The notes under the pieces are model-generated. The model was given only the letters and a program-made list of their open reading frames with translations, had not been told where the DNA came from and ran no database searches. A stretch of 64,000 nt of DNA from Candidatus Obscuribacterales bacterium. Its GTDB lineage: Bacteria > Cyanobacteriota > Vampirovibrionia > Obscuribacterales > Obscuribacteraceae. Shown here piece after piece: positions 40,725 through 54,378 of this stretch; the stretch's first letter is position 1, and every line of letters begins with the position of its first letter. The stretch spans positions 105,092 to 169,091 of the forward strand of contig JAIETZ010000006.1 in assembly GCA_019744775.1 (NCBI GenBank). Reading direction: 5' to 3'. A program made the translations under genes and the position numbers.

Positions 40725-41076
40725 GCAGGTGTGTTTCTAGATGTCAGAATGAAAGCTTTATCGGCATTAATCAATGCTGGAATCGCCCATAGGATGACAG
40801 AATCGACGATTTTCCGCAATACTTTATACTAAACCACAGGGTTGCCGGCACCTGTTGTATATATACCCTCATTGTAACTATCTATTAATTTGTTCAAATA
40901 AAAGCAAAGCTTCAATAGCGCCTGCTTTACAGCTATTTGCCGCCAGTTTCATATAATTGACAGTCGACTGCATAGAATTTGCATACATAGGTGAAGTAAC
41001 TATCAGGCAATTTAGCGGTTGTAAGTATAGAATTGCCGGATTGATTCTTAGCTTTCAATGCGTTGAGGTATTTGGC
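40725..41076. other. Intergenic region between wzm and the TPR coiled-coil gene
   Basis: About 350 bp without a convincing gene; short ORFs on both strands here overlap each other and have no recognisable content. It contains AT-rich stretches (GTATATATACC near 40856) and must hold divergent promoters for wzm and the TPR gene. Confidence 0.5.
40926..40957 (+). promoter_or_regulatory. Possible promoter of the TPR coiled-coil gene
   Basis: A consensus TATAAT (40952-40957) follows TTTACA (40926-40931), but with a long 20-nt spacer. Transcription would start near 40964, leaving about 113 nt of untranslated leader before ATG 41077. Confidence 0.4.
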
Positions 41077-44000
41077 ATGAAGCGCAAAATCGCGTTATCA
41101 ACTGTGGGCTTGTGTGGAGCACTGATTCTGACATCAGCTGCCTCGGCGCGTAGTTCGGACTGGCAATCAAGCTTTGAACTCGGACGTCGAGCTTTTGCCG
41201 ACGGTCGCTACGTTCAAGCCGAGCAAGAGTTTCGAACTGCTCTTGAAAGTGCCGAATCTTTCGGTAAATCCGACCCTCGCCTGGCGGAGACTCTGACAGC
41301 CCTTGCTGAACTCTATGAGAAAGAAGGCAAGTGGAGCCAAGCTGAAGCTATTTACTGGCGCTGTTTAGAAGCCCAAGAAGTTGCCCTTGGTCCTGACAAC
41401 CAACAGTTGTCGGAAACGCTAAGTCGCCTGGCACAGATTTACACGCTCAAACTCAATGAACCAAGCAAAGCAAGTGGTCTGGTTGAGCTGGCAAATGCTA
41501 TCGACGCCCATGCGCATGCCAAAAGCGACCTGGAAACAGTGCAGTCCTTGCACAATCTGGCAACCATCTATGCTGCACAAAACAAATCTGCCAGCGCCCA
41601 AAAGTTGCTCAAGAGCGCAATGAAATTCGGCGAGAAAGCCCTGGGCAGCCAGAACCAAGAAATGGTTGCAGTCCGTAGAGACTACATTGCTCTGACCAGA
41701 ACAGGCAAAGTACAACCAGCACAGTCACAACGCGTTGTTGACTCTGTTGCAGAAAGCCAAAATACAGAAGCTCCAGCAATCCAACCAGTTGCAACTGCTG
41801 AGCCGGCTGTAAGCGAAAGCTATCTGGCTGACGATCCGGAATTACAGCAAATTGCCGAGCAAGAAAGACTGGCTCGCATGCGCGCTGCTCACGCTAAAGC
41901 CTTGGCTCAACAAGCCGCTGCTGAGCGTGTTAATGCTGAAAGATTAGCCAATGAAAGAGTAACTGCTGCTCAACAAGCCGCTGTCGATAAGGCAGCTGCT
42001 GAAAAAGCCGCTACAGATAAGGCTAATATGGAACGCCTGGCTGCCGAGCGTGCTGCTGCCGAGCGTCTTGCTGCTGAGCGCATTGCCGCTGAAAGAGTAG
42101 CTGCTGAAAAATATGCCGCCGACAAAGCGGAAGCGGAAAAATTTGCTGCAGAAAAAGCTGCTGTTGAGCGTGCGATAGCTGCTAAAGCTCTGGCTGAAAA
42201 GCTTGCCGCTGAGCGTGCCGCTGCCGAAAAGGCCATGGCTGAGAGAATGGCCGCCAAAAAAGCTTTGCTGGAAACAGCATCAGCTGAAAGAGTAGCTGCT
42301 GAAAAAGCTGCTGCTGAAAAAGCCGCGCAAGCCAAATTAATTGCTGAAAGAGAAGCTGCCGAGCGCGCTGCTGCCGAACGTGCCGCTGCCGAACGCGCAG
42401 TTGCTGAAAGAGAAGTTGCCGAGCAATCTTACAAGGCAAAGCTGGCTGCCGAACGCGCTGCTGAATCAGCAAGACTTACAGCAGAAAGACTAGCTGCTAA
42501 AAAAGCTGCCTTGGAAAAAATCGCTATTGCTCGTGCCGTACAAGAAGAAGCAGGTGCGGAGCGCGTCGCTGCCGACTCGCAATATGCTCGCAAGGCTGCC
42601 GCAGCTCGTAAAGCTGAAGCTGAGCAAGCACAGGCATTGCAATTGGCAGAGCAAAAAGCCAATGAAGCACGCATCATTGCGGAGAAATTAGAAGCTGCCC
42701 GTTTGGCGTCAGAAAGACTCTCTGCTGAAAAAGCTGCTGCTGAAAAGGCTGCCACTGAGCGTTCGCTCGTAGCCGCTAGATTAGCTTCGGAAAGACAGGC
42801 TGCCGAAAGATTGGCTACTGAGCGCCGTGCCGCAGAACAAGCTGCTGCTGAGCGCGCCAACGCCGAACTTGCCGCCAGTCGCGATCTCGTATCAGATGTA
42901 GCAATGGAAGATCCGGCCGCTGCAGCTCGTGCTGCCAGCCAGAACCGCATTGCCGTTAGTGCTGCACAAACAGCTCAAACGGAAATTGCCCGCCAGGCTC
43001 AAATTGCCAAGCAACGACTGGAACAACAAAAAGAAGAGCTGGAAAAGCTGCAAGCTGAAAGAGAAAGACTGGAACAGCAATTAGCTGAAGAGAAAGCTGC
43101 TGCTCAACGCGCTCAAGAACTAAGAGCACAAGCTCAACAGCAAGCTTCGGACAACGGCTTAATTGCTGAACAAGAAGCGGCAAGAAAAGCAGCTCAAGAA
43201 AAAGCTAGCCTTGATCGTCAAATAGCGATGGAAAAGGCAGCCGCTGAAAGAGCAGCCATGGAAAGCCAAGCAGCCGAACAACGTGTGGCATTGGAAAAAG
43301 CCAGATCACAAAGAATTGCCGCTGAAAATGCCGCCGCTCAGAAAGCCACAGCAATGAAGGTAATTGCTCAGTCAACCACTAAGGTAGCGCCAGTAAAAGC
43401 GACCACCAGCGTCCTACCTGCCGCACAGCCTGCATTAGAAGGTGATCTTGCACCAATAACCATGCCGTCAGGATTTGCTGATCAAACAGCATTGAATACT
43501 TTGCTGGAAGAAATCAAAGCAAGTGGACCGCAAAACAACAACGGTCTGGCTGTAAGAATCAACCAGTTGGCAGAGCGCTATTTGGGCAAAGGTGATCTAG
43601 TCAGCGCCGAGAATATCTTCAAGCAAACACTCAACGCATACGATCGCGTTGGCGCATTGGATACACCAGCAAGCGCTACCCTGTCGAGCAACCTGGCAGG
43701 ACTTTATTTCAGCCAGAGAAAATATGAGGAATGCCAACTTATGTATGAACGTTCACTTCGCGTGTACGAACATACACTTGGTCTCAAGCATCCTTATGTA
43801 TCCGGTGCTGTAAATAACCTGGCCATTGTTCTCATTCAACAAGGCAAGTACAAGGAAGCGGAAAATCTCTATCAAAATGTTCTTTCTCTCCGCGAGAAAA
43901 CACTTGGACCTGATGATCTATCCGTTGCTGAAAGCTTGTTTGAATTGGGCAGCTATTATTTGAACCGCAAAGACTTCCCGCAGTCAGAGAAGCTCATCAA

Positions 44001-44166
44001 GCGCGCTCTAGCGATAAGAAGCAACAAGCTTCCCGAAAGAAATCCGGAAGTCATTGCCACCCTCAATTGCTACGTTAAGGTCTTGCGCCTTAACAACCGC
44101 AACAGAGAAGCCGATCAAATAGAAGCTCGCGCAGTTGCTGCAAGAATGAAACATGCGGGAATGTGA
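41077..44166 (+). CDS. Exported giant TPR / Ala-rich coiled-coil protein
   Basis: This 1029-residue protein has a signal peptide (about 1-26, ending ASARSSD). It has N-terminal TPRs (about 30-200; FELGRRAFADGRYVQAEQEF), a very long Ala/Glu/Arg/Lys-rich region (about 260-765) made of AAAERxAAEK-type units that should be a continuous helical coiled coil, and C-terminal kinesin-light-chain-type TPRs (about 805-1029; NNLAIVLIQQGKYKEAENLY). It is probably periplasmic or surface-attached and may span or scaffold the envelope. ATG 41077 is preferred over an in-frame start at 40957 because the signal peptide and GAGGT (41065-41069) fit it. Its function is unknown. Confidence 0.85.
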   Translation: MKRKIALSTVGLCGALILTSAASARSSDWQSSFELGRRAFADGRYVQAEQEFRTALESAESFGKSDPRLAETLTALAELYEKEGKWSQAEAIYWRCLEAQEVALGPDNQQLSETLSRLAQIYTLKLNEPSKASGLVELANAIDAHAHAKSDLETVQSLHNLATIYAAQNKSASAQKLLKSAMKFGEKALGSQNQEMVAVRRDYIALTRTGKVQPAQSQRVVDSVAESQNTEAPAIQPVATAEPAVSESYLADDPELQQIAEQERLARMRAAHAKALAQQAAAERVNAERLANERVTAAQQAAVDKAAAEKAATDKANMERLAAERAAAERLAAERIAAERVAAEKYAADKAEAEKFAAEKAAVERAIAAKALAEKLAAERAAAEKAMAERMAAKKALLETASAERVAAEKAAAEKAAQAKLIAEREAAERAAAERAAAERAVAEREVAEQSYKAKLAAERAAESARLTAERLAAKKAALEKIAIARAVQEEAGAERVAADSQYARKAAAARKAEAEQAQALQLAEQKANEARIIAEKLEAARLASERLSAEKAAAEKAATERSLVAARLASERQAAERLATERRAAEQAAAERANAELAASRDLVSDVAMEDPAAAARAASQNRIAVSAAQTAQTEIARQAQIAKQRLEQQKEELEKLQAERERLEQQLAEEKAAAQRAQELRAQAQQQASDNGLIAEQEAARKAAQEKASLDRQIAMEKAAAERAAMESQAAEQRVALEKARSQRIAAENAAAQKATAMKVIAQSTTKVAPVKATTSVLPAAQPALEGDLAPITMPSGFADQTALNTLLEEIKASGPQNNNGLAVRINQLAERYLGKGDLVSAENIFKQTLNAYDRVGALDTPASATLSSNLAGLYFSQRKYEECQLMYERSLRVYEHTLGLKHPYVSGAVNNLAIVLIQQGKYKEAENLYQNVLSLREKTLGPDDLSVAESLFELGSYYLNRKDFPQSEKLIKRALAIRSNKLPERNPEVIATLNCYVKVLRLNNRNREADQIEARAVAARMKHAGM

Positions 44167-44345: not shown

Positions 44346-45299
44346 CTACCGCTTGCTTGCAGTGCCGCACTGCGCTAGATACCAGTCTATTGTTTCCTTG
44401 AGTCCCTTTTCAAAAGAAGTCTGCGCTTCAAAGCCGAAGAACTTCTTGGCTCTGGATGTATCAAGCTTTCTGCGGGGCTGACCGTTTGGCTTACTTTTAT
44501 CCCAAACAATTTCACCATTAAAGTCGGTCAAGCGAGCAACAAGTTCAGTCAAGTCCTTAATTGAGATCTCAAATCCAGAGCCGAGGTTAACAGGCTCCGA
44601 TCCATTGTATTTTTCAGCTGCCAAAACAATTCCTTCTGCACAGTCATCAACGTACAGGAACTCTCTTGTTGGACTACCATCGCCCCAAGCAACAACTTGC
44701 TTTTCATTTTTCTCTTTTGCTTCAACGAACTTGCGTATTAATGCTGGAATGACATGCGAAGACGAAGGATCAAAATTGTCACCAGGTCCATATAAATTTA
44801 CCGGCATCAAATAAACAGCGTTGTAGTTGTACTGCTGCCTGTATGCCTGCGCTTGTACCAAAAGCATTTTTTTGGCCAAGCCATATGGTGCGTTTGTTTC
44901 TTCCGGATAGCCCAGCCAAAGATCTTCTTCTTTGAAAGGAATTGGTACCACTTTCGGATAAGCACAAATGGTCCCAATGGCAACAAACTTATCAACTCCA
45001 GCTTTGCGCGCCTCTTCCATAAGCATGGCGCCCATAACCATATTCTCGTAATAGAACCTGCCTGGATTTTCTCTGTTGGCGCCGATGCCACCGACGACTG
45101 CGGCCAAATGGATAATCAAATCGGGATTAAGGTCTGCCATCAATTGGCGAACGTCGTTTTGTTCAATTAGGTCGTATTCCTTATGTGAAGGCACTAGAAC
45201 CTCGCCGACGGCTCTTTGTTTCAGAACGTTGACGACCCGCTTGCCGAGGAATCCCGAACCCCCAGTGACCAAAACACGATTGTATGGAAAACTGCCCAT
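44346..45299 (-). CDS. fcl: GDP-L-fucose synthase
   Basis: This 317-residue SDR has the cofactor motif GGSGFLG at 13-19, the GDP-fucose synthase hallmark [24 protein letters not shown] with the catalytic Ser position as Thr/Cys, and Y139-x3-K143 (YGLAKK). It epimerises and reduces GDP-4-keto-6-deoxymannose to GDP-L-fucose with NADPH. It is divergent from the gmd-like gene, so both steps of the pathway sit side by side. A TATTAT -10 box (minus strand, 45315-45310) lies 10 nt before the ATG. Confidence 0.92.
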
Positions 45300-45427: not shown

Positions 45428-46423
45428 ATGAAAAAGCGCGTACTCATAACCGGAATAACAGGCATGGCCGGTTCACATCTGGCGGATTTGTTATTAGCAG
45501 AAGCCCCGGACTATGAAATCTTCGGCACCAAGCGCTGGCGCAGTTCTCTTACCAACGTCGCTCATTTAGATGGAAAAGTTAAGTTTATTGACTGCAATTT
45601 GACCGACAGCACAGCTTGCTTGAAGCTTATTGAAACAACACGCCCCGATTATGTCTTTCACTTAGCCGCGCAAAGCTTTGTACCGCACTCCTGGCAAAAC
45701 CCCAATGCCACTTTGAGCGACAACATCATGATGCAATTGCATCTATTTGAAGCAATCAGATCAGTAGGCATTGATCCTGTAATTCAGATAGCACTGAGCT
45801 CTGAAGAGTACGGCAAAGTTTTGCCACACGAAGTGCCGGTCAAAGAAAACAATCCTTTGCGACCGCTGAGCCCATATGCGGTAAGCAAAGTTGCTCAAGA
45901 CATGCTTGCTTATCAATACAATCAAAGCTATGGATTTAAAACCATTCGCACCAGAGCCTTCAATCATGAAGGACCAAGACGCGGCGAGGTGTTTGTAACA
46001 TCCAACTTCGCTAAGCAAATTGCTGAAATTGAGGCAGGATTGAAACCACCACAATTGAAAGTCGGCAATCTAAATGCCAGACGCGACTGGAGCGATGTAA
46101 GAGACGTTGCTCGCGCCTACTGGCTGTCAGTTCAGCATTGCGTACCTGGAGAAGAGTACGTAATTGCCTCCGGACAGACTCGTTCCATTCAAGAGCTTTT
46201 GGACTTCCTGCTCAGCCAAACAAAATCAAAGATAGAAGTAGTTGTCGATCCAACTCGCCTGCGCCCGTCTGACGTGGAACTCCTGCAGGGCGATCCAAGT
46301 AAATTCATCAAAGCTACCGGCTGGAAGCCACGCTATACATTTGAGCAAACAATGGGCGATTTGCTCGAATACTGGCGTGAGCAAATCCGCAGCGGCAACA
46401 GTGTCATTGGTGTCGGCTCGTAA
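45428..46423 (+). CDS. gmd: GDP-mannose 4,6-dehydratase-type SDR
   Basis: This 331-residue SDR has GITGMAG at 9-15, HLAAQSFVPHSW, ALSSEEYG with the active-site Ser/Glu (124-126), Y150-x3-K154 (YAVSK), and the Gmd block RTRAFNHEGPRRGEVF followed by RDWSDVRDVARAYWL. It should convert GDP-mannose to GDP-4-keto-6-deoxymannose, the substrate for the adjacent fcl product. A 4-reductase (RMD) function cannot be excluded from sequence alone. It ends directly against the convergent ATP-grasp gene. Confidence 0.87.
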   Translation: MKKRVLITGITGMAGSHLADLLLAEAPDYEIFGTKRWRSSLTNVAHLDGKVKFIDCNLTDSTACLKLIETTRPDYVFHLAAQSFVPHSWQNPNATLSDNIMMQLHLFEAIRSVGIDPVIQIALSSEEYGKVLPHEVPVKENNPLRPLSPYAVSKVAQDMLAYQYNQSYGFKTIRTRAFNHEGPRRGEVFVTSNFAKQIAEIEAGLKPPQLKVGNLNARRDWSDVRDVARAYWLSVQHCVPGEEYVIASGQTRSIQELLDFLLSQTKSKIEVVVDPTRLRPSDVELLQGDPSKFIKATGWKPRYTFEQTMGDLLEYWREQIRSGNSVIGVGS

Positions 46424-47395
46424 TTACTTGCCTTCAACAAGCAATCCAGCAAGTCTTTGTGCTATAGGAAGTTCCAATGCTTCTTGAAGCCAAAGAAATT
46501 GCCCCTGTGGATTTAGTTCAAAAAATACAAACCGCCCATCCGGCGTCAAAGCAAAATCAAAAGCAGCATAGACCAATCCCAGGTTTTTCATGAGTTGTCG
46601 ACACTTGGACTCAATATCATCCGGTAGTTTGAACTTGCTTAGTTTGTTATTTCGAGCCACGCGCCAATCCAACTTGGCTCCTTCTACTTGCGGTTCAATT
46701 TTCACCGCAAAGATTTCATCACCAACAACCATTACTCTCAAGTCGCAGATTTTTTCAATTTTTTCCTGAAAAAGCTGCAGTGAATACTTAGTTTGTTCCA
46801 AATGGGATAGATCAGTTTCACGAAATTCAAGCGTGGGCATTCCCCGTGGCTGCTCTTGTTCAGGAAAATATTGCCAGCTCGCCTCGTCGATAAGCTTGTA
46901 AATGATTCTATTTGAAAAGCGCTCAGCAAATTGTTTTATCAGTTTGGGATCGTTGCTGACTAATGTATGTGGGATTTTGAAGCCTGCATCCTGAGCAATT
47001 TTCAATTGATTCAGCTTGATTAGTGCCTCTTGCTGCTTAGTAGGATTATTTACCCAAAAGGCGTGCGACAGAGTTCTATAAATCCCCTCCAGCGCCCTTC
47101 CAGACTCCCAGTTGACCAAAGCTTCCAGCCACCGCTTGGGCATACTACCGCTCTTTGGTGTACCAGGACGCCTGTACCAAATGGCATCAAATGCACCTAA
47201 TTCAAATGTTTGGGAATCCTGTGAAACAAGACTGGCACACTCATTGCCGCCCAGCTCAAACCCCAGCAAGCTTTCTTGCGGAATCCTGCGCGCGGACCAG
47301 ACAACAACTTTACACTTGAGCTTGTCCAACTCGTCACAAACAGCACGAGTATGAACGTCTTTATCAGGCGCCAGAATGAGAATACTTCTGCTCAT
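46424..47395 (-). CDS. MvdD/RimK-like ATP-grasp peptide ligase
   Basis: This 323-residue protein has the landmarks of MvdC/MvdD-type ATP-grasp enzymes: IWYRRP (72-77), FWVNNP (113-118), the QLKIAQDAGFKIPHTLVSN region (from 130), DLRVMVVGDEIFA (218-230), DWR (243-245) and the metal-binding FELNPQGQ (292-299). In microviridin and other graspetide pathways such enzymes form ester or amide links between side chains of a precursor peptide. All catalytic blocks appear intact. It overlaps by 4 nt a 60-codon ORF directly upstream and is divergent from a kinase/PqqD-type operon. The substrate is unknown. Confidence 0.87.
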   Translation of the reverse strand: MSRSILILAPDKDVHTRAVCDELDKLKCKVVVWSARRIPQESLLGFELGGNECASLVSQDSQTFELGAFDAIWYRRPGTPKSGSMPKRWLEALVNWESGRALEGIYRTLSHAFWVNNPTKQQEALIKLNQLKIAQDAGFKIPHTLVSNDPKLIKQFAERFSNRIIYKLIDEASWQYFPEQEQPRGMPTLEFRETDLSHLEQTKYSLQLFQEKIEKICDLRVMVVGDEIFAVKIEPQVEGAKLDWRVARNNKLSKFKLPDDIESKCRQLMKNLGLVYAAFDFALTPDGRFVFFELNPQGQFLWLQEALELPIAQRLAGLLVEGK

Positions 47396-47574
47396 ATATT
47401 TTCATCGCAAATTGCAGAAGCAACATCGCAGATTGGATCTGAATATTTCGACCACAAGGGCGCACAAATGTTATCAGGCTCACCCCACATTATGTCCGCA
47501 TACTCACTGGTCTGACGCAGCCACCAGGCACGTAAAAAGAAAGGCACCAAATTGGCTAGCTGAGAATTGTCCAT
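47392..47574 (-). CDS. Small ORF, candidate substrate or partner of the ATP-grasp enzyme
   Basis: This 60-codon ORF starts at ATG 47574 with AGG about 7 nt upstream, and its stop overlaps the ATP-grasp start (ATGA). The product has three Trp, three Cys (37, 49, 56) and an acidic C-terminal third (SDPICDVASAICDENI) preceded by LWSKYS. No signal peptide and no recognised family. Graspetide cores need Asp/Glu plus Ser/Thr/Lys, which this tail has; that makes it a candidate precursor, but the usual conserved leader motif is not seen. It may instead be a small accessory protein. Confidence 0.5.
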   Translation of the reverse strand: MDNSQLANLVPFFLRAWWLRQTSEYADIMWGEPDNICAPLWSKYSDPICDVASAICDENI

Positions 47575-47602
47575 GTAGCCTATATTACATCAAGGAAGAA
47601 TC

Positions 47603-47631
47603 TTGCAGAATCGCTTCGGACTGCTGATAAA
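47603..47631 (+). promoter_or_regulatory. Weak promoter candidate for the AlkP/kinase/PqqD operon
   Basis: TTGCAG (47603-47608), a 17-nt spacer and GATAAA (47626-47631) predict a start about 3 nt before the GTG at 47641. The -35 is a poor match. It lies in the 66-bp region divergent from the 60-codon ORF. Confidence 0.3.
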
Positions 47632-47640
47632 ATTTATAAA

Positions 47641-48957
47641 GTGACTAGCCAAACAAACACTGCAAAAAAAATGCTGCTCATTAGCCTAGATGGGCTATCA
47701 GCTGAGCAGTTCCGATATCTGTCAACAACATTTGGCTTACTCAATACCTATTTAAAGTCAGGCATTAAGAAGCTGACCAGCAATACTCTGAGTTCAACTC
47801 AGGGAGCATGGGGCGAAATCTTATCCGGCAAGCCTTGGTGGGAAACCGGCTGTGTAGGATACGCCGTTCCAAAAAATAGTCTTTGCGACTTGGAAGTTAG
47901 CAGCGAGTCTTCTTACAAGCTTGATTCCGCAATGACACAGCTACCAAGTCTTGTCGTCAACGTGCCTTTGTTGGAACCAAAAGACAGGCTCTGGCTTTCC
48001 GAAGGCTTGTCAGCCATCAGCGTTAATCCGAAAAGACTGATGTCTAGTGAACCTTTTAAGTCGTATCAAGCCCGTCCGTTTTCTTCACCGGCATATTTCT
48101 TGGGAAAACCTTTTGAAGGCACTCGACTCTGTCTTGAAGCGGAAAAGCAAAGACTCATCTGCGCCGAAGCCTTGGCTCGCGAAAACAATTGGCAATTAGG
48201 CATCATCCGCCTAACTACTTTTGATCAGTTAGCTCACTTGCTCGGCAACGACTATCTTGGCAAAACCACTCTGGCAATCCGCCCGGAAATTGAGTCTTTC
48301 ATCAGCGAAATCAACGATGTGCTTGAACGTATTATTGAATCTGCAAAACCATCAACAGTTGCCGTTATGTCTTCGTACTCACACGTCGAGTGCAAGAAAC
48401 GCATCAGCCTGAATCAGCTATTGGCACAATTAGGATTCTGCACACTTAAGGATAAAGCCTTGGTACAAAAAGAACAGGTTTTGCGATATGAGTCAACAAT
48501 TGCTCTGTCCACCAGAAAAGTTTCCTCACCCTTAATTTCTACAACAAACGCTTTTGTTGAAGAATCTTGCATCGCAGCTTCTCCTATTCAAGGTGCCATT
48601 TATGTAAACGTAAAAGACCGATTCAAAAATGGAATCGTCTCCCGCGATAGCCAGCAGTCTCATGTCAAGCAAGTTGAATCACAGCTGAAGTCGGCATTGC
48701 ATGAAGCAGGTGTGACCAATTTCAATATTGAGTTAAATCCGGAACCAACAAATTCCTCAAAGACGCCTGCTCCTGATTTAATGGTGTACGCAGATGGAGT
48801 CGACTTTCATAACCTCTACGATGCTCCTGTTGTTGACTCCTTTAGCCATCCAATTAGTTGTCACTCCACAAACGGCTTTGTTTGCATAGATAATAATGAC
48901 GGAGATTATTTAAGTCGCTTATCACTGCATAGGTTGTTGGAAGCGAGGCTAAATTGA
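47641..48957 (+). CDS. Alkaline-phosphatase-fold protein with degenerate metal site
   Basis: This 438-residue protein has the type I phosphodiesterase/nucleotide pyrophosphatase opening MLLISLDGLSAEQF (metal Asp), a nucleophile region NTLSSTQGAWGEILSGKPWW, and TTFDQLAHLLG matching the D-x3-H metal ligands. The canonical S-D-H-G block is replaced by MSSYSHVE, so one metal site lacks its Asp-His pair; HSTNGF keeps the last His. It may be a binding protein or a hydrolase with altered metals. The start is GTG 47641; ATG 47671 is possible. Its stop overlaps the next start by 4 nt. Confidence 0.72.
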   Translation: MTSQTNTAKKMLLISLDGLSAEQFRYLSTTFGLLNTYLKSGIKKLTSNTLSSTQGAWGEILSGKPWWETGCVGYAVPKNSLCDLEVSSESSYKLDSAMTQLPSLVVNVPLLEPKDRLWLSEGLSAISVNPKRLMSSEPFKSYQARPFSSPAYFLGKPFEGTRLCLEAEKQRLICAEALARENNWQLGIIRLTTFDQLAHLLGNDYLGKTTLAIRPEIESFISEINDVLERIIESAKPSTVAVMSSYSHVECKKRISLNQLLAQLGFCTLKDKALVQKEQVLRYESTIALSTRKVSSPLISTTNAFVEESCIAASPIQGAIYVNVKDRFKNGIVSRDSQQSHVKQVESQLKSALHEAGVTNFNIELNPEPTNSSKTPAPDLMVYADGVDFHNLYDAPVVDSFSHPISCHSTNGFVCIDNNDGDYLSRLSLHRLLEARLN

Positions 48958-49766
48958 ATTCGCACATTTATATACTCGGCAGTCACCTTTATCATCTTCA
49001 GTCTAAAGATGGCGAACTTTTGGAACTACTAAATAAACTGCTGCCAAACTATGACAGCAGTATGCACGCGAACAATTACATCAACACTGCCATCGAAACA
49101 ATTGACTTGGATGGACCTCTTCCTATACGAGGACTGGATCAATCCTTATTTGCCAAAGATAATCCGGAAATAGCGTTAATAGGACTCTTAGACCGCTGTC
49201 TAGCTGATCATGCAGGTTACCTTTGGATTGACGCCTCAGCACTCTTAACTCCACAAGGCGCACTTGTTTTGCTATCTGGTCCATCCCATAGCGGCAAAAC
49301 CACCCTTACCTTGTCTATGGCATTGGCGCACAATTGGAAAATCTTGGCCGAAGATATCGTACTCATTGATTTGAAAACTGGACTACTGGTCCCATTTGCC
49401 AGACCCCTTTCGCTGCGATCGGACACAGCCGGCAAAATTAAAACAGCAACCGGACTTGATGTCGGGTCGTTTGTCTTAGAAGGATGGCTCACCAATAGCC
49501 AGTGGTACAGTCTTAAACCGGTGCCGGCCAACTTCGACCTAGCCATAGACTTAGCTGTAACCGATAAGGATGCAGCAACCAGCCTAAAAATTAACACTGT
49601 GGAGAATGGCGAGTTTCTGCGAAGCCTGATTACCCATTCAAATGCGCTTCGTTACGACAATGGTGTCCAAGTCTTATCGAGCGCGTTTGCCAAAGCAACG
49701 CTCAACTTGCTGTCAGGCGGCTCACCTAGGGACAGAATCAACCATTTGCTCAAGCTAGGCTGCTAA
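48954..49766 (+). CDS. HprK-like kinase (HPr kinase fold), peptide-system type
   Basis: This 270-residue protein has a P-loop GPSHSGKTTLT (109-119) and LAEDIVLIDL (131-140), the HprK-type nucleotide/acceptor loop, in a fold like the C-terminal half of HPr kinase/phosphorylase. The length and missing N-terminal domain fit the HprK-related proteins found in RiPP and PqqD-linked loci; in lasso-peptide clusters (PadeK, ThcoK) such kinases phosphorylate the precursor. It starts at TTG 48954 (TTGA overlap with the previous stop), so is translationally coupled. The likely substrate is the small peptide encoded at 50146. Confidence 0.82.
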   Translation: MNSHIYILGSHLYHLQSKDGELLELLNKLLPNYDSSMHANNYINTAIETIDLDGPLPIRGLDQSLFAKDNPEIALIGLLDRCLADHAGYLWIDASALLTPQGALVLLSGPSHSGKTTLTLSMALAHNWKILAEDIVLIDLKTGLLVPFARPLSLRSDTAGKIKTATGLDVGSFVLEGWLTNSQWYSLKPVPANFDLAIDLAVTDKDAATSLKINTVENGEFLRSLITHSNALRYDNGVQVLSSAFAKATLNLLSGGSPRDRINHLLKLGC

Positions 49767-49775
49767 AATGAGCCA

Positions 49776-50054
49776 ATGCATTATCAACGCAATGATGAAA
49801 TTAAGACAACTCTGATGCCGGATGGTCATGTGGTTCTATTTAACACAAAGACCGAATGGGCTCAGGTGTTAAACCCTGTCGGCGCTCTGGTCTGGGAGTA
49901 TTGCGATGGGACTACTTCCGTCATGGAAATGACAGACGAAATCAGCAAGTTGCTGGAGACCGATAAGACTGCATTGCAAAATGATGTTAATTCCTTGATT
50001 GACGAACTTTTGACCCAAGGACTAATTAAACAGGCGCAGCCAAGTAAGCCATAA
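49776..50054 (+). CDS. PqqD-family peptide-binding protein (RRE)
   Basis: This 92-residue protein has the PqqD winged-helix pattern: an N-terminal beta hairpin (TTLMPDGHVVLFN), LNPVGALVWEYCDGTTSVMEM, then helices to LIDELLTQGLIKQ. PqqD/RRE domains bind the leader of a precursor peptide and present it to modifying enzymes. It starts 9 nt after the kinase stop and precedes a 70-aa peptide gene. Kinase plus PqqD plus small peptide suggests ribosomal peptide modification. No lasso protease (B2) or cyclase (asparagine synthetase-like) is present. Confidence 0.87.
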   Translation: MHYQRNDEIKTTLMPDGHVVLFNTKTEWAQVLNPVGALVWEYCDGTTSVMEMTDEISKLLETDKTALQNDVNSLIDELLTQGLIKQAQPSKP

Positions 50055-50082
50055 GCCAGGCTGAGCTTAGCTTTTGCCGTGC

Positions 50083-50091
50083 TGATATAAT
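50083..50091 (+). promoter_or_regulatory. Extended -10 promoter of the small peptide gene
   Basis: TGATATAAT gives a consensus TATAAT (50086-50091) preceded by TGn. No good -35 is seen, as usual for extended -10 promoters. Transcription would start near 50098, giving a leader of about 48 nt with AAGGT (50133-50137) 8 nt before the ATG. The peptide gene can thus be expressed apart from the enzymes upstream. Confidence 0.6.
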
Positions 50092-50145
50092 ATGCTTTAG
50101 GGGGAGCTTGGTCTTCAAGTAGGGCTAGCCATAAGGTCGAAAACC

Positions 50146-50358
50146 ATGACACACGACAACCAAAACGACATCACCATCAAAGACGCTAACTCTCCGGCCA
50201 GCGACAAAAGCATAAGCCGGAAAGAGTTTGTGCACTTGGTCTTGAAGCGCGGTGCCATAGCAGGCGCAATCGTTGCGGCCCCCAAAATTATCGATAAATT
50301 TCTAGTACCACCAGTCTATGCAGGCACTAGCACACAACCTCATGGACACTTGGCCTAA
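50146..50358 (+). CDS. Small exported peptide with Tat-like leader, candidate RiPP precursor
   Basis: This 70-residue protein has a polar N-terminus (1-22), a Tat-like signal SRKEFVHLVLKRGAIAG (from 24; twin basic RK rather than RR), a hydrophobic core, and a possible signal peptidase site VYA-G (57-60). Cleavage would release 11 residues, GTSTQPHGHLA, rich in Thr/Ser/His. It has its own promoter and follows HprK-like and PqqD-like genes. Thr/Ser in the tail could be kinase targets. It has no Asp/Glu in the tail, so is not a likely graspetide core. It could also be a small Tat-dependent protein of other function. Confidence 0.7.
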   Translation: MTHDNQNDITIKDANSPASDKSISRKEFVHLVLKRGAIAGAIVAAPKIIDKFLVPPVYAGTSTQPHGHLA

Positions 50359-50412
50359 ACTGGAACAATGCTTGCCGTGGTATAACTCCTGAGGACCTGA
50401 AAGAAAGGCCCT

Positions 50413-52860
50413 ATGGATACTGCATTAAATAATAAAGTTATGGCAACTTGGAAGACCTATGCTGGGGTCTTTTTAGTTACTGCCGCAACGCTGCTACTAG
50501 AATTACTACTGACCCGAATCTGGTCTGTCACAATGTGGTATCACTTTGCTTTTGTGGCAGTTTCACTCGCTATGTTTGGCATGACTGGCGGCGCTCTTTT
50601 AATTTACCTTATGCCGAACCGCTTCCCTCAGAACAAAACGGAAAGCCAACTATCGCTAGCTACATTATGCTTTGGCATATCTATCATTATCTCCTTCCTT
50701 TGTCACCTCGCCATGCCCTTCATGCCGGACAAATCATTGAGCGGTTTATTTGCTATGGGTCTTTCTTACTTGACCATATCCATTCCGTTTATATTTAGCG
50801 GTATCGTCATAACTCTGGCTCTCACGCGTTACTCTCAGCAAGTAAATAAGATGTATGCAGCTGATCTCTCAGGAGCTGCCATCGGTTGTCTTTTATTCAT
50901 CGGAATTCTAGACTTGGTCGACGGTCCCACAGCAGTAATCGTCTCTTCACTCGTAGCCCTTTGTGCTGCACTACTACTTTCGACCAATAAGAAACAAACT
51001 ATGGCAACAATCATCGCTGTGGTTTCGGTCGGGCTATTGGTAGTTCTGAATGTCTGGTCTGTGCAAATAAAACATCCTCTTGTGCGTCTAATGTGGGTAA
51101 AAGCCAACTTTCAAACGCCATCATATTTCGAACGTTGGAATTCACTATCACGCGTTTCTGTCGATGGCGACCCTGAGCACAGATTTGCTTCTCCAGATAT
51201 AGCAACTTCCAATCCTAGTGAAAAGGAGAAGGGCAAGCAATTACTACTGACCGTAGACTCACTTTACTCCACGCCATTGCCTGGGTTCAGCGGGAAGCTG
51301 GCAGATGCCGATTACTTGAAGCACGATATCAGCTTTTTGGCTCACTACCTAAGACAAGACGCTAATGTACTGGTAATTGGAGTCGGTGGGGGTCGCGATA
51401 TTCTGGCAGCTCTCAACTTCAATCAAAAATCAATTACCGCCGTTGAGATCAACAAAATATTTACCGATTTGCTCCTTAATACCTTTGCTGATTTCTCCAG
51501 CAATTTCGCACGTGACAAGAAAGTGACGCTTGTAAATGACGAGGCCCGTAGCTTTGCAAGCAGGCAAAAAGACAAGTTCGACATTATTCAGTTATCTTTC
51601 ATCAGCACGGGTACTGCTAGTTCCACAGGCGCCTTTGCTTTGACGGAAAACTCGCTCTATACAAAAGAAGCCTGGCAAATGCTTCTTAACCATTTAACTG
51701 ACGATGGGATTCTGACGTGCACTCGCAACTATTTCGTGGATGAGAAGGGACTGGCTCGTCCTGGCGAACTGCAACGCCTAATTTCCCTTGCTCGCGCCGC
51801 GCTTGAACAAAACAACATTGCCAGCCCGGAAGCTCATATTGTCTGCATATCGCATACTCCAAGCAAGGCGATAGACGAAGGCATCGCTTCAGTAACGATG
51901 CTGGTAGGCAAAAAGGCTTTTTCAGAAAAAGATTTGATAATTCTCGCTCAAGTAGCTAAGGACAACAACTTTAATATCTTGTTGACACCGAAATATTCAT
52001 CGGAACCATCGCTCAAGACATTGGCATCAGGCAACGGATTAGCTGAACTCACCAATGAATTTCCCACGCGGATCGATGCACCCACGGATGACAATCCGTT
52101 TTTCTTTTACATCTTGCGATTGGAGAAGCTTTTCACAACCAAAGCCAGCGAAGTAGGCACCTATGCAATTTACACCAAAGCAATGGAAATTCTTATCGAA
52201 TTACTGATTGTGGTCGTGGTGCTCACTGCTGCCTGCTTTGTCGTGCCATTGGCCTTAACCAATAAGTCTCTGAAATTGAAGCGAGATTTACCACTGCTTA
52301 CATTTTTCGCCTCAGTAGGACTCGGTTTTATGTTTATCGAAGTATCGCAGCTACAGCGTCTCGTTATATTCCTCGGACATCCGACTTATAGTCTGTCTGT
52401 TGTACTTTTCTCGCTGTTGTTATCTTCCGGACTGGGCAGCTATCTGGCAGGAATAATCAAACAAGATACGACTTATAAGGGCGACTTAACAAGACTCACA
52501 CTGTTACTCTTTGCACTTGGTGCATATGCGTACGTATCACCTGTAGTTGTTCATTCCCTACAAGCTGCCACTACGCCAGAGCGTGTCATAGCCACGATAG
52601 CGATGCTCTTTCCACTCGGACTGCTTATGGGTATGGCCGTTCCAGCGGGCTTGCGATTAGCTCAACAGGAGTCCGCAGAAATTCTTCCCTGGCTGTGGGG
52701 AGTTAACGGCGCAACATCTGTTTGTGCATCAGTGGTGGCAGTTGCCGTCGCTATCAACTGGGGACTTACCAATTCCTATTGGATTGGCGTAATTTGTTAT
52801 CTAGCAGCATGTACGGCATTCGCTTGCGCAAGAAAATCCTTACCGGAAAGCAAGTCTTAG
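50413..52860 (+). CDS. Polytopic membrane protein with spermidine-synthase-like domain
   Basis: This 815-residue protein has N-terminal membrane segments (about 15-220), a cytoplasmic SAM/aminopropyl-transferase-like Rossmann domain (VLVIGVGGGRDILAAL, AVEINKIF, then FDIIQLSF), and a second set of membrane segments from about 590 to the end. This is the SpeE-fused membrane family, known in many bacteria but without a settled reaction. The usual Asp of polyamine synthases in the GGGDG motif is here R-D (GGGRD). It follows the peptide gene by 54 nt in the same direction and may process or export its product; this is inference. Confidence 0.83.
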   Translation: MDTALNNKVMATWKTYAGVFLVTAATLLLELLLTRIWSVTMWYHFAFVAVSLAMFGMTGGALLIYLMPNRFPQNKTESQLSLATLCFGISIIISFLCHLAMPFMPDKSLSGLFAMGLSYLTISIPFIFSGIVITLALTRYSQQVNKMYAADLSGAAIGCLLFIGILDLVDGPTAVIVSSLVALCAALLLSTNKKQTMATIIAVVSVGLLVVLNVWSVQIKHPLVRLMWVKANFQTPSYFERWNSLSRVSVDGDPEHRFASPDIATSNPSEKEKGKQLLLTVDSLYSTPLPGFSGKLADADYLKHDISFLAHYLRQDANVLVIGVGGGRDILAALNFNQKSITAVEINKIFTDLLLNTFADFSSNFARDKKVTLVNDEARSFASRQKDKFDIIQLSFISTGTASSTGAFALTENSLYTKEAWQMLLNHLTDDGILTCTRNYFVDEKGLARPGELQRLISLARAALEQNNIASPEAHIVCISHTPSKAIDEGIASVTMLVGKKAFSEKDLIILAQVAKDNNFNILLTPKYSSEPSLKTLASGNGLAELTNEFPTRIDAPTDDNPFFFYILRLEKLFTTKASEVGTYAIYTKAMEILIELLIVVVVLTAACFVVPLALTNKSLKLKRDLPLLTFFASVGLGFMFIEVSQLQRLVIFLGHPTYSLSVVLFSLLLSSGLGSYLAGIIKQDTTYKGDLTRLTLLLFALGAYAYVSPVVVHSLQAATTPERVIATIAMLFPLGLLMGMAVPAGLRLAQQESAEILPWLWGVNGATSVCASVVAVAVAINWGLTNSYWIGVICYLAACTAFACARKSLPESKS

Positions 52861-53585
52861 CGTCGCGTAACAGCTAAGGGACTACTACCAAACATCTTTT
52901 CGATTTCTTTGGTCAATTCAGTCAAATCCTTAGCAGTATCAACTGTCCGCCAGAAAAATTTGGACTTATAGGCTCTCAATTGCCCGCTCTTAGCCAATCC
53001 CGGTAAAGTTGTCTCCTCATGATCGCCGACATCCGGCAAAAGATCAGTGATATCAGAATCAAGCAAATAAATACCGGCGTTAATCCAAAAAGGCAATTCC
53101 GGCTTTTCTCTAAAGCCAGTCACCAAGGCATTTTCCTCAATATCGACAATGCCATATGGGCTGCGCAAAGGGACCGTAACCAGCGTCGCAATTGATTTAT
53201 GCTGAGTATGCGTTTTGTAGAGATCGTCAATCGGCAAGTTGGTAATAAGGTCGCCGTTGAGAGCTATCAAAGGGCCACCATTGGCACTATTACGCAAATG
53301 AGTCATGCACGCCTTAAGCGCACCACCACGTCCCAGTGGCTTTTCCTCTACAAGATAGTCAATTTTGAGATCCCACTTGGAACCATCACCGAAATGCTTC
53401 TGGATAATCTCGTGTTGGTAGCCGCAGGCAATAGCCACGTGCTCAATGCCATAAGACTTTAACCAATGAAGCTGATAAGCTAAAAGCGGATTTCCAAGTA
53501 TTTCCACCATCGTTTTTGGACGGTCATCCGTCAGGGGCCGAAGCCTCTCCCCGCGTCCCCCGGCTAAGATAATGGCTTTTTTCAT
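52857..53585 (-). CDS. Sugar-1-phosphate nucleotidyltransferase
   Basis: This 242-residue protein opens with the nucleotidyltransferase motif AIILAGGRGERLRPLTDDRP and KTMVEILGNPLL, then has IALNGDLITNL with the metal-binding Asp and TGFREKPELPFWINAGIYLL. It lacks a C-terminal hexapeptide domain, as in RmlA-short, RfbF and HddC-like enzymes. It makes an NDP-sugar (NTP + sugar-1-P); the base and sugar are not clear. The gene is convergent with and overlaps the membrane protein by 4 nt, and is divergent from the sugar transferase. Confidence 0.88.
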   Translation of the reverse strand: MKKAIILAGGRGERLRPLTDDRPKTMVEILGNPLLAYQLHWLKSYGIEHVAIACGYQHEIIQKHFGDGSKWDLKIDYLVEEKPLGRGGALKACMTHLRNSANGGPLIALNGDLITNLPIDDLYKTHTQHKSIATLVTVPLRSPYGIVDIEENALVTGFREKPELPFWINAGIYLLDSDITDLLPDVGDHEETTLPGLAKSGQLRAYKSKFFWRTVDTAKDLTELTKEIEKMFGSSPLAVTRR

Positions 53586-53676: not shown

Positions 53677-54378
53677 TTGGAAGCCGGCACCTTTGATACT
53701 GCGTCACATCATTCGGTAGCAAAGAAAACCATTTATGGTTTGTTCGGCAAGAGATTCTTTGACCTATTGTTCGGCAGCATCGTCTTTATTTTTTCCCTAC
53801 CTGTCCTGCTTTTAGCATCCCTTGTAATCATGATTGATAACCCGGGAAGCCCTATTTACAGGCAAAAACGGGTAGGCAAACACGGCACCGTCTTTGACTT
53901 GTACAAGATTCGCACCATGTACATCGACCAGGAGCATCACGGTTTTCGCACCACCGATGGTGACAGCCGCGTCACCCGTTTCGGCAAAATTCTACGCGAT
54001 ACTAAAATAGATGAACTGCCGCAGCTGTTTAATGTTATTAAGGGCGACATGAGCCTCATTGGACCCCGTCCATTATCCGTCAGCGAATTTGAATACATTG
54101 AACACCTTGGATTTGCTGAGACACATCCAGGCTTTTGTCCGGAAGTCGCTCCCGGGCTAACAGGTCTGGAGCAGGTCAACCGCGCCGGATTGCACATGCC
54201 TTACGTAGACCGTTTCATCTTCAACAAATTCTATGAAACTCACCTGTCGCCATGGTGGGACTTCAAAATCCTGGTCAAAACTTTCCTGCTTTGCACACCC
54301 GTCTGCATCCTGTTAGGGCTAGCCGGACTTGCCGAGCTTGCCTGGCTAACGATACCTGCCTATTTAATCGTTAAATAG
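53677..54378 (+). CDS. Polyprenyl-phosphate sugar-1-phosphate transferase (initiating)
   Basis: This 233-residue protein has KRFFDLLFGSIVF with the N-terminal membrane hairpin, then YRQKRVGKHGTVFDLYKIRT and DELPQLFNVIKGDMSLIGPRP. These are the catalytic Asp-Glu and the signature of the WbaP/PglC type (Bac_transf). It links the first sugar-phosphate to undecaprenyl phosphate and starts glycan assembly. The C-terminus has an extra hydrophobic stretch (about 205-233). The start is TTG 53677 with AGGAG 8 nt upstream. It overlaps the convergent SRPBCC gene by 15 nt. Confidence 0.92.
   Translation: MEAGTFDTASHHSVAKKTIYGLFGKRFFDLLFGSIVFIFSLPVLLLASLVIMIDNPGSPIYRQKRVGKHGTVFDLYKIRTMYIDQEHHGFRTTDGDSRVTRFGKILRDTKIDELPQLFNVIKGDMSLIGPRPLSVSEFEYIEHLGFAETHPGFCPEVAPGLTGLEQVNRAGLHMPYVDRFIFNKFYETHLSPWWDFKILVKTFLLCTPVCILLGLAGLAELAWLTIPAYLIVK

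Follow-up and report, generated by a model that had tools for sequence, protein, structure and literature searches.

The locus studied here lies in a 64,000-nucleotide stretch (the window, by which we mean this whole stretch) of the 4.1-Mb genome of a Candidatus Obscuribacterales bacterium (assembly GCA_019744775.1, contig JAIETZ010000006.1, positions 105,092 to 169,091 of the forward strand), and the question that it raises is whether two divergent gene units set among glycan genes make up one peptide-modification pathway. An earlier note on this DNA had proposed that they do, with an ATP-grasp ligase and a small open reading frame (ORF) on the minus strand and a possible hydrolase, a kinase, a leader-binding protein, a peptide and a SpeE-like membrane protein on the plus strand. 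We find that the halves are inherited as a unit, and we lean, with modest confidence, towards a single two-precursor cassette for a ribosomally synthesized and post-translationally modified peptide (RiPP), yielding a phosphorylated, probably sugar-modified surface peptide. An ORF check of the window confirmed the positions of all ORFs named in that note and the 66-bp divergent gap, and the two units read as follows (HMM, hidden Markov model; RRE, RiPP recognition element).

46424..47395, minus strand: GRASP, ATP-grasp gene, MdnC/MdnB-like graspetide synthetase (HMM and structure-profile matches, invariant residues)
47392..47574, minus strand: smORF, predicted graspetide precursor of 60 aa, leader LVPFFLRAWWLR, core LWSKYSDPICD (conservation, codon comparison)
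47575..47640, no strand: divergent intergenic region of 66 bp between the minus and plus units
47641..48957, plus strand: ALKP, AlkP-superfamily protein of NPP fold that retains one metal site (PF01663, model, alignment)
48954..49766, plus strand: HPRK, predicted HprK-like peptide kinase (Walker A of GxSxSGKTT type, invariant E133, weak match to HprK_rel_A)
49776..50054, plus strand: PQQD, predicted discrete RRE of the PqqD family (PF05402 over cut-off)
50146..50358, plus strand: PEP, predicted second precursor of 70 aa with a Tat-like leader (SRKEF...IIDKFLVPPVYAG) and a short, variable tail that closes with TSTQPHGHLA

Co-occurrence and co-divergence of the two halves

A survey of 53 genomes of the order Obscuribacterales revealed that the 11 genomes (6 genera) with the GRASP clade are exactly those with smORF and with ALKP, and that the 15 with PQQD are exactly those with PEP. 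These genes are also physically linked, with smORF and ALKP ≤2.3 kb from GRASP in 16 of 17 loci and PEP ≤2.9 kb from it in 15 of 17, and none of the 6 other ATP-grasp relatives in the order has smORF, ALKP or PEP nearby. Co-occurrence p-values from hypergeometric tests ranged from 1e-6 to 1e-13, values that ignore phylogeny, and the comparison of cassette types within genomes is the stronger evidence. Two types (I and II) are both present in three genomes, and the trees of all five genes (smORF, GRASP, PEP, ALKP and PQQD) split identically between them, with pairwise distance correlations of 0.68-0.91 that were not reached in any of 2000 permutations. Gene order varies, such that two loci (L040 and L039) hold a single co-directional run of smORF-GRASP-PEP-ALKP-PQQD and the others are divergent and reordered. 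Because linkage is accompanied by co-divergence of types I and II, we conclude that the cassette is inherited and selected as a unit. Co-occurrence, linkage, the co-directional version in two genomes and five-gene co-divergence thus give strong support to the proposal of a single system made of both halves, and the pattern that the earlier note had named as speaking against it, independent halves that co-occur no more than by chance, was not seen in the 53 genomes.

Selection on the two small genes is purifying, with dN/dS against same-genus copies of about 0.05-0.12 for smORF and 0.04 for PEP at dS near saturation, and both therefore behave as real genes. The exception to linkage is genome G067, in which GRASP stands near the end of one contig (C144) and ALKP-PQQD-PEP at the end of another (C72); these may be one split locus. 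A scan of the 66-bp divergent region for promoters found no sigma-70-like consensus and nothing above shuffled sequences.

Beyond the order, an ALKP profile run over 386 genomes of the phylum returned weak generic AlkP matches only, and a scan of named genomes found five cassette loci, all of Obscuribacterales lineage by sequence; no spread outside the order was found, within the limits of pattern-based scanning. Among named genomes, the closest relatives are metagenome-assembled genomes (MAGs) of Candidatus Obscuribacterales, together with Cyanobacteria bacterium SZAS-4 and a MAG that bears a Chloroflexi label. This last contig (L078, SBAT01000412.1, "Chloroflexi bacterium") holds an Obscuribacterales-type cassette with an ALKP 53% identical to the window's, and its label is probably wrong.

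Components of the cassette

Evaluating the minus-strand half, we found that GRASP matches the MvdD pre-ATP-grasp domain (PF21068) over cut-off, scores 193-231 bits against the GRASP_SAV_5884, MvdD and MvdC models, under each model's own cut-off, and misses the NCBIfam equivalog cut-offs for MvdC and MvdD (425 and 475) at 193 and 194 bits. Its profile has MdnC (1.8e-64) and MdnB (5.5e-61) as best Protein Data Bank matches, and the catalytic residues D280, E293 and N295 are invariant in its relatives, which places it with the graspetide ligases in the broad sense. Also invariant is D195, the equivalent of the leader-binding acid Asp192 of MdnC; in MdnC, Glu191, Asp192 and Asn195 contact Arg17 of the PFFARFL leader (PMC7823629). 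The smORF, which overlaps the GRASP start by 4 bp, carries the matching side, a microviridin-type leader PFFLRAWWLR in the window with close variants in relatives, in which the leader Arg (PFFLR) is conserved. The graspetide leader motif, defined as Phhx(1,2)h (PMC8939145), is thus present adjacent to the ligase. Downstream runs a constant core stretch, W-S-x-[YHF]-S-D-P-x-C-D, and P11, F12, W17, D46, P47 and C49 are invariant in 13 sequences. An AlphaFold2 (AF2) model of the smORF (pLDDT, the model's own confidence score, of 62) forms the leader helix only, at residues 12-24, with the remainder disordered.

Because of the PFFLR leader with its conserved Arg, the invariant ligase Asp, the constant core, the leader helix and purifying selection, the smORF has the anatomy of a graspetide precursor, in which rings would presumably form. 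A Ser45-Asp50 lactone would be expected, since the microviridin order runs nucleophile before acid. Very large proteins of one family (up to 1656 aa) adjoin GRASP at three loci (L036:2-2314, L042:12483-17453 and L044:2671-6927), with no Pfam match within the part searched.

ALKP matches PF01663 over cut-off, and its AF2 model (pLDDT 86) has the NPP fold, superposing on XacNPP (2gsn) with Z 20.6 and rmsd 4.0 over 306 aligned. The canonical NPP set of two metal sites and a Thr/Ser nucleophile is incomplete, such that in an alignment with canonical homologues the SDHG motif, with the Asp-His of metal site 2, is replaced in 12 of 12 sequences and 3 of these, the window copy among them, retain the nucleophile Thr, while D195, H199 and H408 of the other metal site are invariant; the assignment of sites to motifs is one that we take from general knowledge of the NPP family. 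With half of the active site lost, an ordinary hydrolase is unlikely, contrary to what had been suggested, and ALKP is more likely a partner or repurposed enzyme than a phosphodiesterase.

The plus-strand genes fit the kinase and leader-binding roles given to them, with HPRK belonging to an HprK-like family and PQQD, by its family, appearing as a discrete RRE. PEP has a conserved, Tat-like leader ending DKFLVPPxxA (one relative comes close to the TIGR01409 cut-off), followed by variable tails, roughly 10-60 residues long, in which Thr, Ser, Gly and Pro are abundant. Ser or Thr occurs in all 20 of 20 tails, and Thr makes up 12.6% of them versus 5.3% in the larger cassette proteins. HprK kinases of RRE systems put phosphate on Ser, and in linear polyphosphorylated peptides (LPP) on core Ser (PMC13381572), while in pseudomycoidin the PsmK/PsmN pair adds phosphate and then hexose (PMC9266682). 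A gene of the NTP_transf_5 family adjoins the cassette in several related loci and is located elsewhere in the window's genome (C6:19636-20451), which also holds a second PqqD-family gene (C1:219362-219541). Near one cassette, L039 and L040 hold a row of four HprK-like genes, between which NTP_transf_5 and DUF2092/AhpC-TSA genes are interspersed.

Neighbouring glycan genes and known systems

The cassette is flanked by fcl and gmd upstream and by NTPT and a PF02397 transferase downstream:

44346..45299, minus strand: fcl-like GDP-fucose synthase (context)
45428..46423, plus strand: gmd-like GDP-mannose 4,6-dehydratase (context)
50413..52860, plus strand: SPEE, membrane protein with a spermidine-synthase-like domain (PF01564, Spermine_synth, over cut-off)
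52857..53585, minus strand: NTPT, sugar-1-phosphate nucleotidyltransferase, guanylyltransferase-like (HMM matches)
53677..54378, plus strand: second, divergent PF02397 sugar-phosphate transferase (HMM and genome survey)

A standard PF02397 gene (about 200 bits) is present as a single copy in most Obscuribacterales genomes. Thirteen genomes carry the divergent type (146-181 bits), each together with the RRE/PEP half or, in G001, a truncated cassette. In nine of them (G000, which is the window's genome, and G002, G008, G013, G015, G018, G030, G032 and G067) it is no more than a few kb away from cassette genes; in G001 it adjoins SpeE and nucleotidyltransferase genes, and several loci pair it with a sugar nucleotidyltransferase. 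Being confined to RRE/PEP genomes and linked to the cassette, this gene suggests that what had looked like an insertion into a glycan locus is better understood as a set of dedicated sugar genes. The idea that the peptide is attached to the glycan gains from this dedicated transferase, and the attachment itself, like the placing of sugar on the peptide, is what the transferase would do on our reading. SPEE had been counted as part of the pathway; it accompanies the cassette in 4 of 17 loci (G000, G001, G002 and G023:C16; no genome-wide SpeE search was made) and is for that reason a local accessory, not core. Further upstream, at 40957-44166, the window encodes a 1069-aa TPR-type protein whose long middle part is repetitive and rich in Ala, Glu and Lys.

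Among known systems, microviridin and marinostatin (MdnA-MdnB/MdnC; MvdC/MvdD) share with the cassette the ligase family, catalytic residues, PFFxR leader helix, leader-binding Asp and a ligase adjoining its precursor. They differ in their TxKxPSD core (microviridin, group 1), which the smORF lacks, and in that the cassette has only one ligase, which goes together with an AlkP-fold protein, an RRE and a further precursor, and that the window's cassette holds no acetyltransferase. The plus half resembles LPP, reported in 2026 in Bacillota (PMC13381572), in its discrete RRE, HprK-like kinase (by a weak match) and NTP transferase, in a precursor with conserved N-terminus and variable tail, and in its capsule-type locus. 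The LPP precursor motif YxxPxVLxHQxIxFETxxS is absent from the PEP alignment, in which the leader is Tat-like, and we therefore call this half LPP-like, not LPP. The SpI-like leader peptidase and MsbA-like exporter families of LPP are likewise missing among the window's cassette ORFs, and the cassette adds a graspetide module and an AlkP-fold protein in another phylum.

Three further systems were compared and rejected. The paeninodin and pseudomycoidin lasso clusters (PadeK, PsmK/PsmN) share an HprK-like kinase, a PqqD-type B1 and a nucleotidyltransferase-type protein, and the window's cassette ORFs include no macrolactam cyclase or B2 peptidase. SynChlorMet supplies the best NCBIfam match of PQQD (ScmD, TIGR04248) and weak matches to the kinases of some relatives (ScmC, TIGR04249), all far under cut-off, and the window's cassette has no radical SAM gene. 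The GAK system, defined by a TIGR04356 ATP-grasp with HprK_rel_B, is reached at 14.7 bits versus a cut-off of 300.

Proposed pathway, rival explanations and meaning

From these families, their conservation, linkage and co-divergence, we infer the chemical steps, their order, localisation and coupling as follows. GRASP would bind the PFFLR leader helix of the smORF and cyclise the constant core of this peptide through one or two side-chain linkages, which are probably Ser-Asp lactones. PQQD would bind the conserved PEP leader and present PEP to HPRK, which would phosphorylate Ser/Thr in the tail, after which the dedicated PF02397 transferase, NTPT and, in most of these genomes, the NTP_transf_5 protein may add a sugar or glycan. 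The Tat-like leader of PEP would put the tail outside the cell, and ALKP, found only with GRASP, would most likely be a non-hydrolytic partner that links the graspetide and phosphopeptide branches.

Several points weigh against this single-cassette reading beyond the disregard of phylogeny in the p-values. For a natural product, the smORF core varies unusually little, the HPRK profile match is weak (HprK_rel_A, TIGR04352, 40 bits versus a cut-off of 200), PEP lacks the [Y/W]xxP RRE motif of lasso and LPP leaders, having FxxP at best, some loci (L038 and L041) have no adjacent kinase, and the cassette has no known product or enzyme activity. The two kinase-less loci share a related gene near PEP (L038:11279-12205 and L041:2769-3731), the L041 copy being a calcineurin-like phosphoesterase.

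The most credible alternative, which we nevertheless hold to be unlikely, is that the plus half is no RiPP system at all, its kinase, RRE and Tat-like exported small protein serving to control, anchor or build the glycan, with the graspetide module making a protective protease inhibitor. Recurrent placement in glycan loci and the dedicated PF02397 transferase fit this explanation, as does the position of LPP and paeninodin clusters in capsule loci, where their role is unknown (PMC13381572), whereas PEP looks like a precursor, being short, RRE-paired, variable in its tail and sometimes present in three copies (L037 and L046).

We are similarly doubtful, and a little more so, that the smORF is a constant helper peptide whose core GRASP crosslinks, by ligation, to a separate molecule (PEP or a glycan amine). 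PEP tails do vary while the smORF core is nearly invariant, and GRASP, ALKP and smORF are confined to PEP genomes, one truncated contig excepted; the relatives MdnC and MdnB, in contrast, make intramolecular rings (PMC7823629), and we found no precedent for ligating two peptides. A more elaborate version strikes us as decidedly improbable, namely that GRASP, guided by the degenerate ALKP, crosslinks the constant smORF core to variable PEP, and that the phosphorylated conjugate passes to the dedicated sugar-phosphate transferase, such that the modified peptide starts or caps the surface glycan. That two unrelated peptide clusters are neighbours by chance we can scarcely credit, even with PQQD and PEP standing without GRASP at four loci (L037, L046, L047 and L048, where an HprK-like gene, and often one of the NTP_transf_5 family, is also present), for the minus half is essentially never alone (C144 of G067 being one possible orphan), the linkage outlasts rearrangement, the genes co-diverge, and these data already contradict it.

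No description of a graspetide module combined with HprK and PqqD proteins was found in the literature searched, which left most subscription journals outside it, and the same literature yielded no RiPP from Obscuribacterales, an uncultured, non-photosynthetic cyanobacterial order. If the single-cassette reading is true, this would be a RiPP system that joins graspetide cyclisation to HprK/RRE-type peptide phosphorylation, and the single-metal ALKP would be a candidate for a new type of RiPP partner protein. It would also be a second phylum in which a sugar-phosphate transferase is dedicated to the same kinase/RRE core, which would make a coupling of peptide to glycan directly testable.

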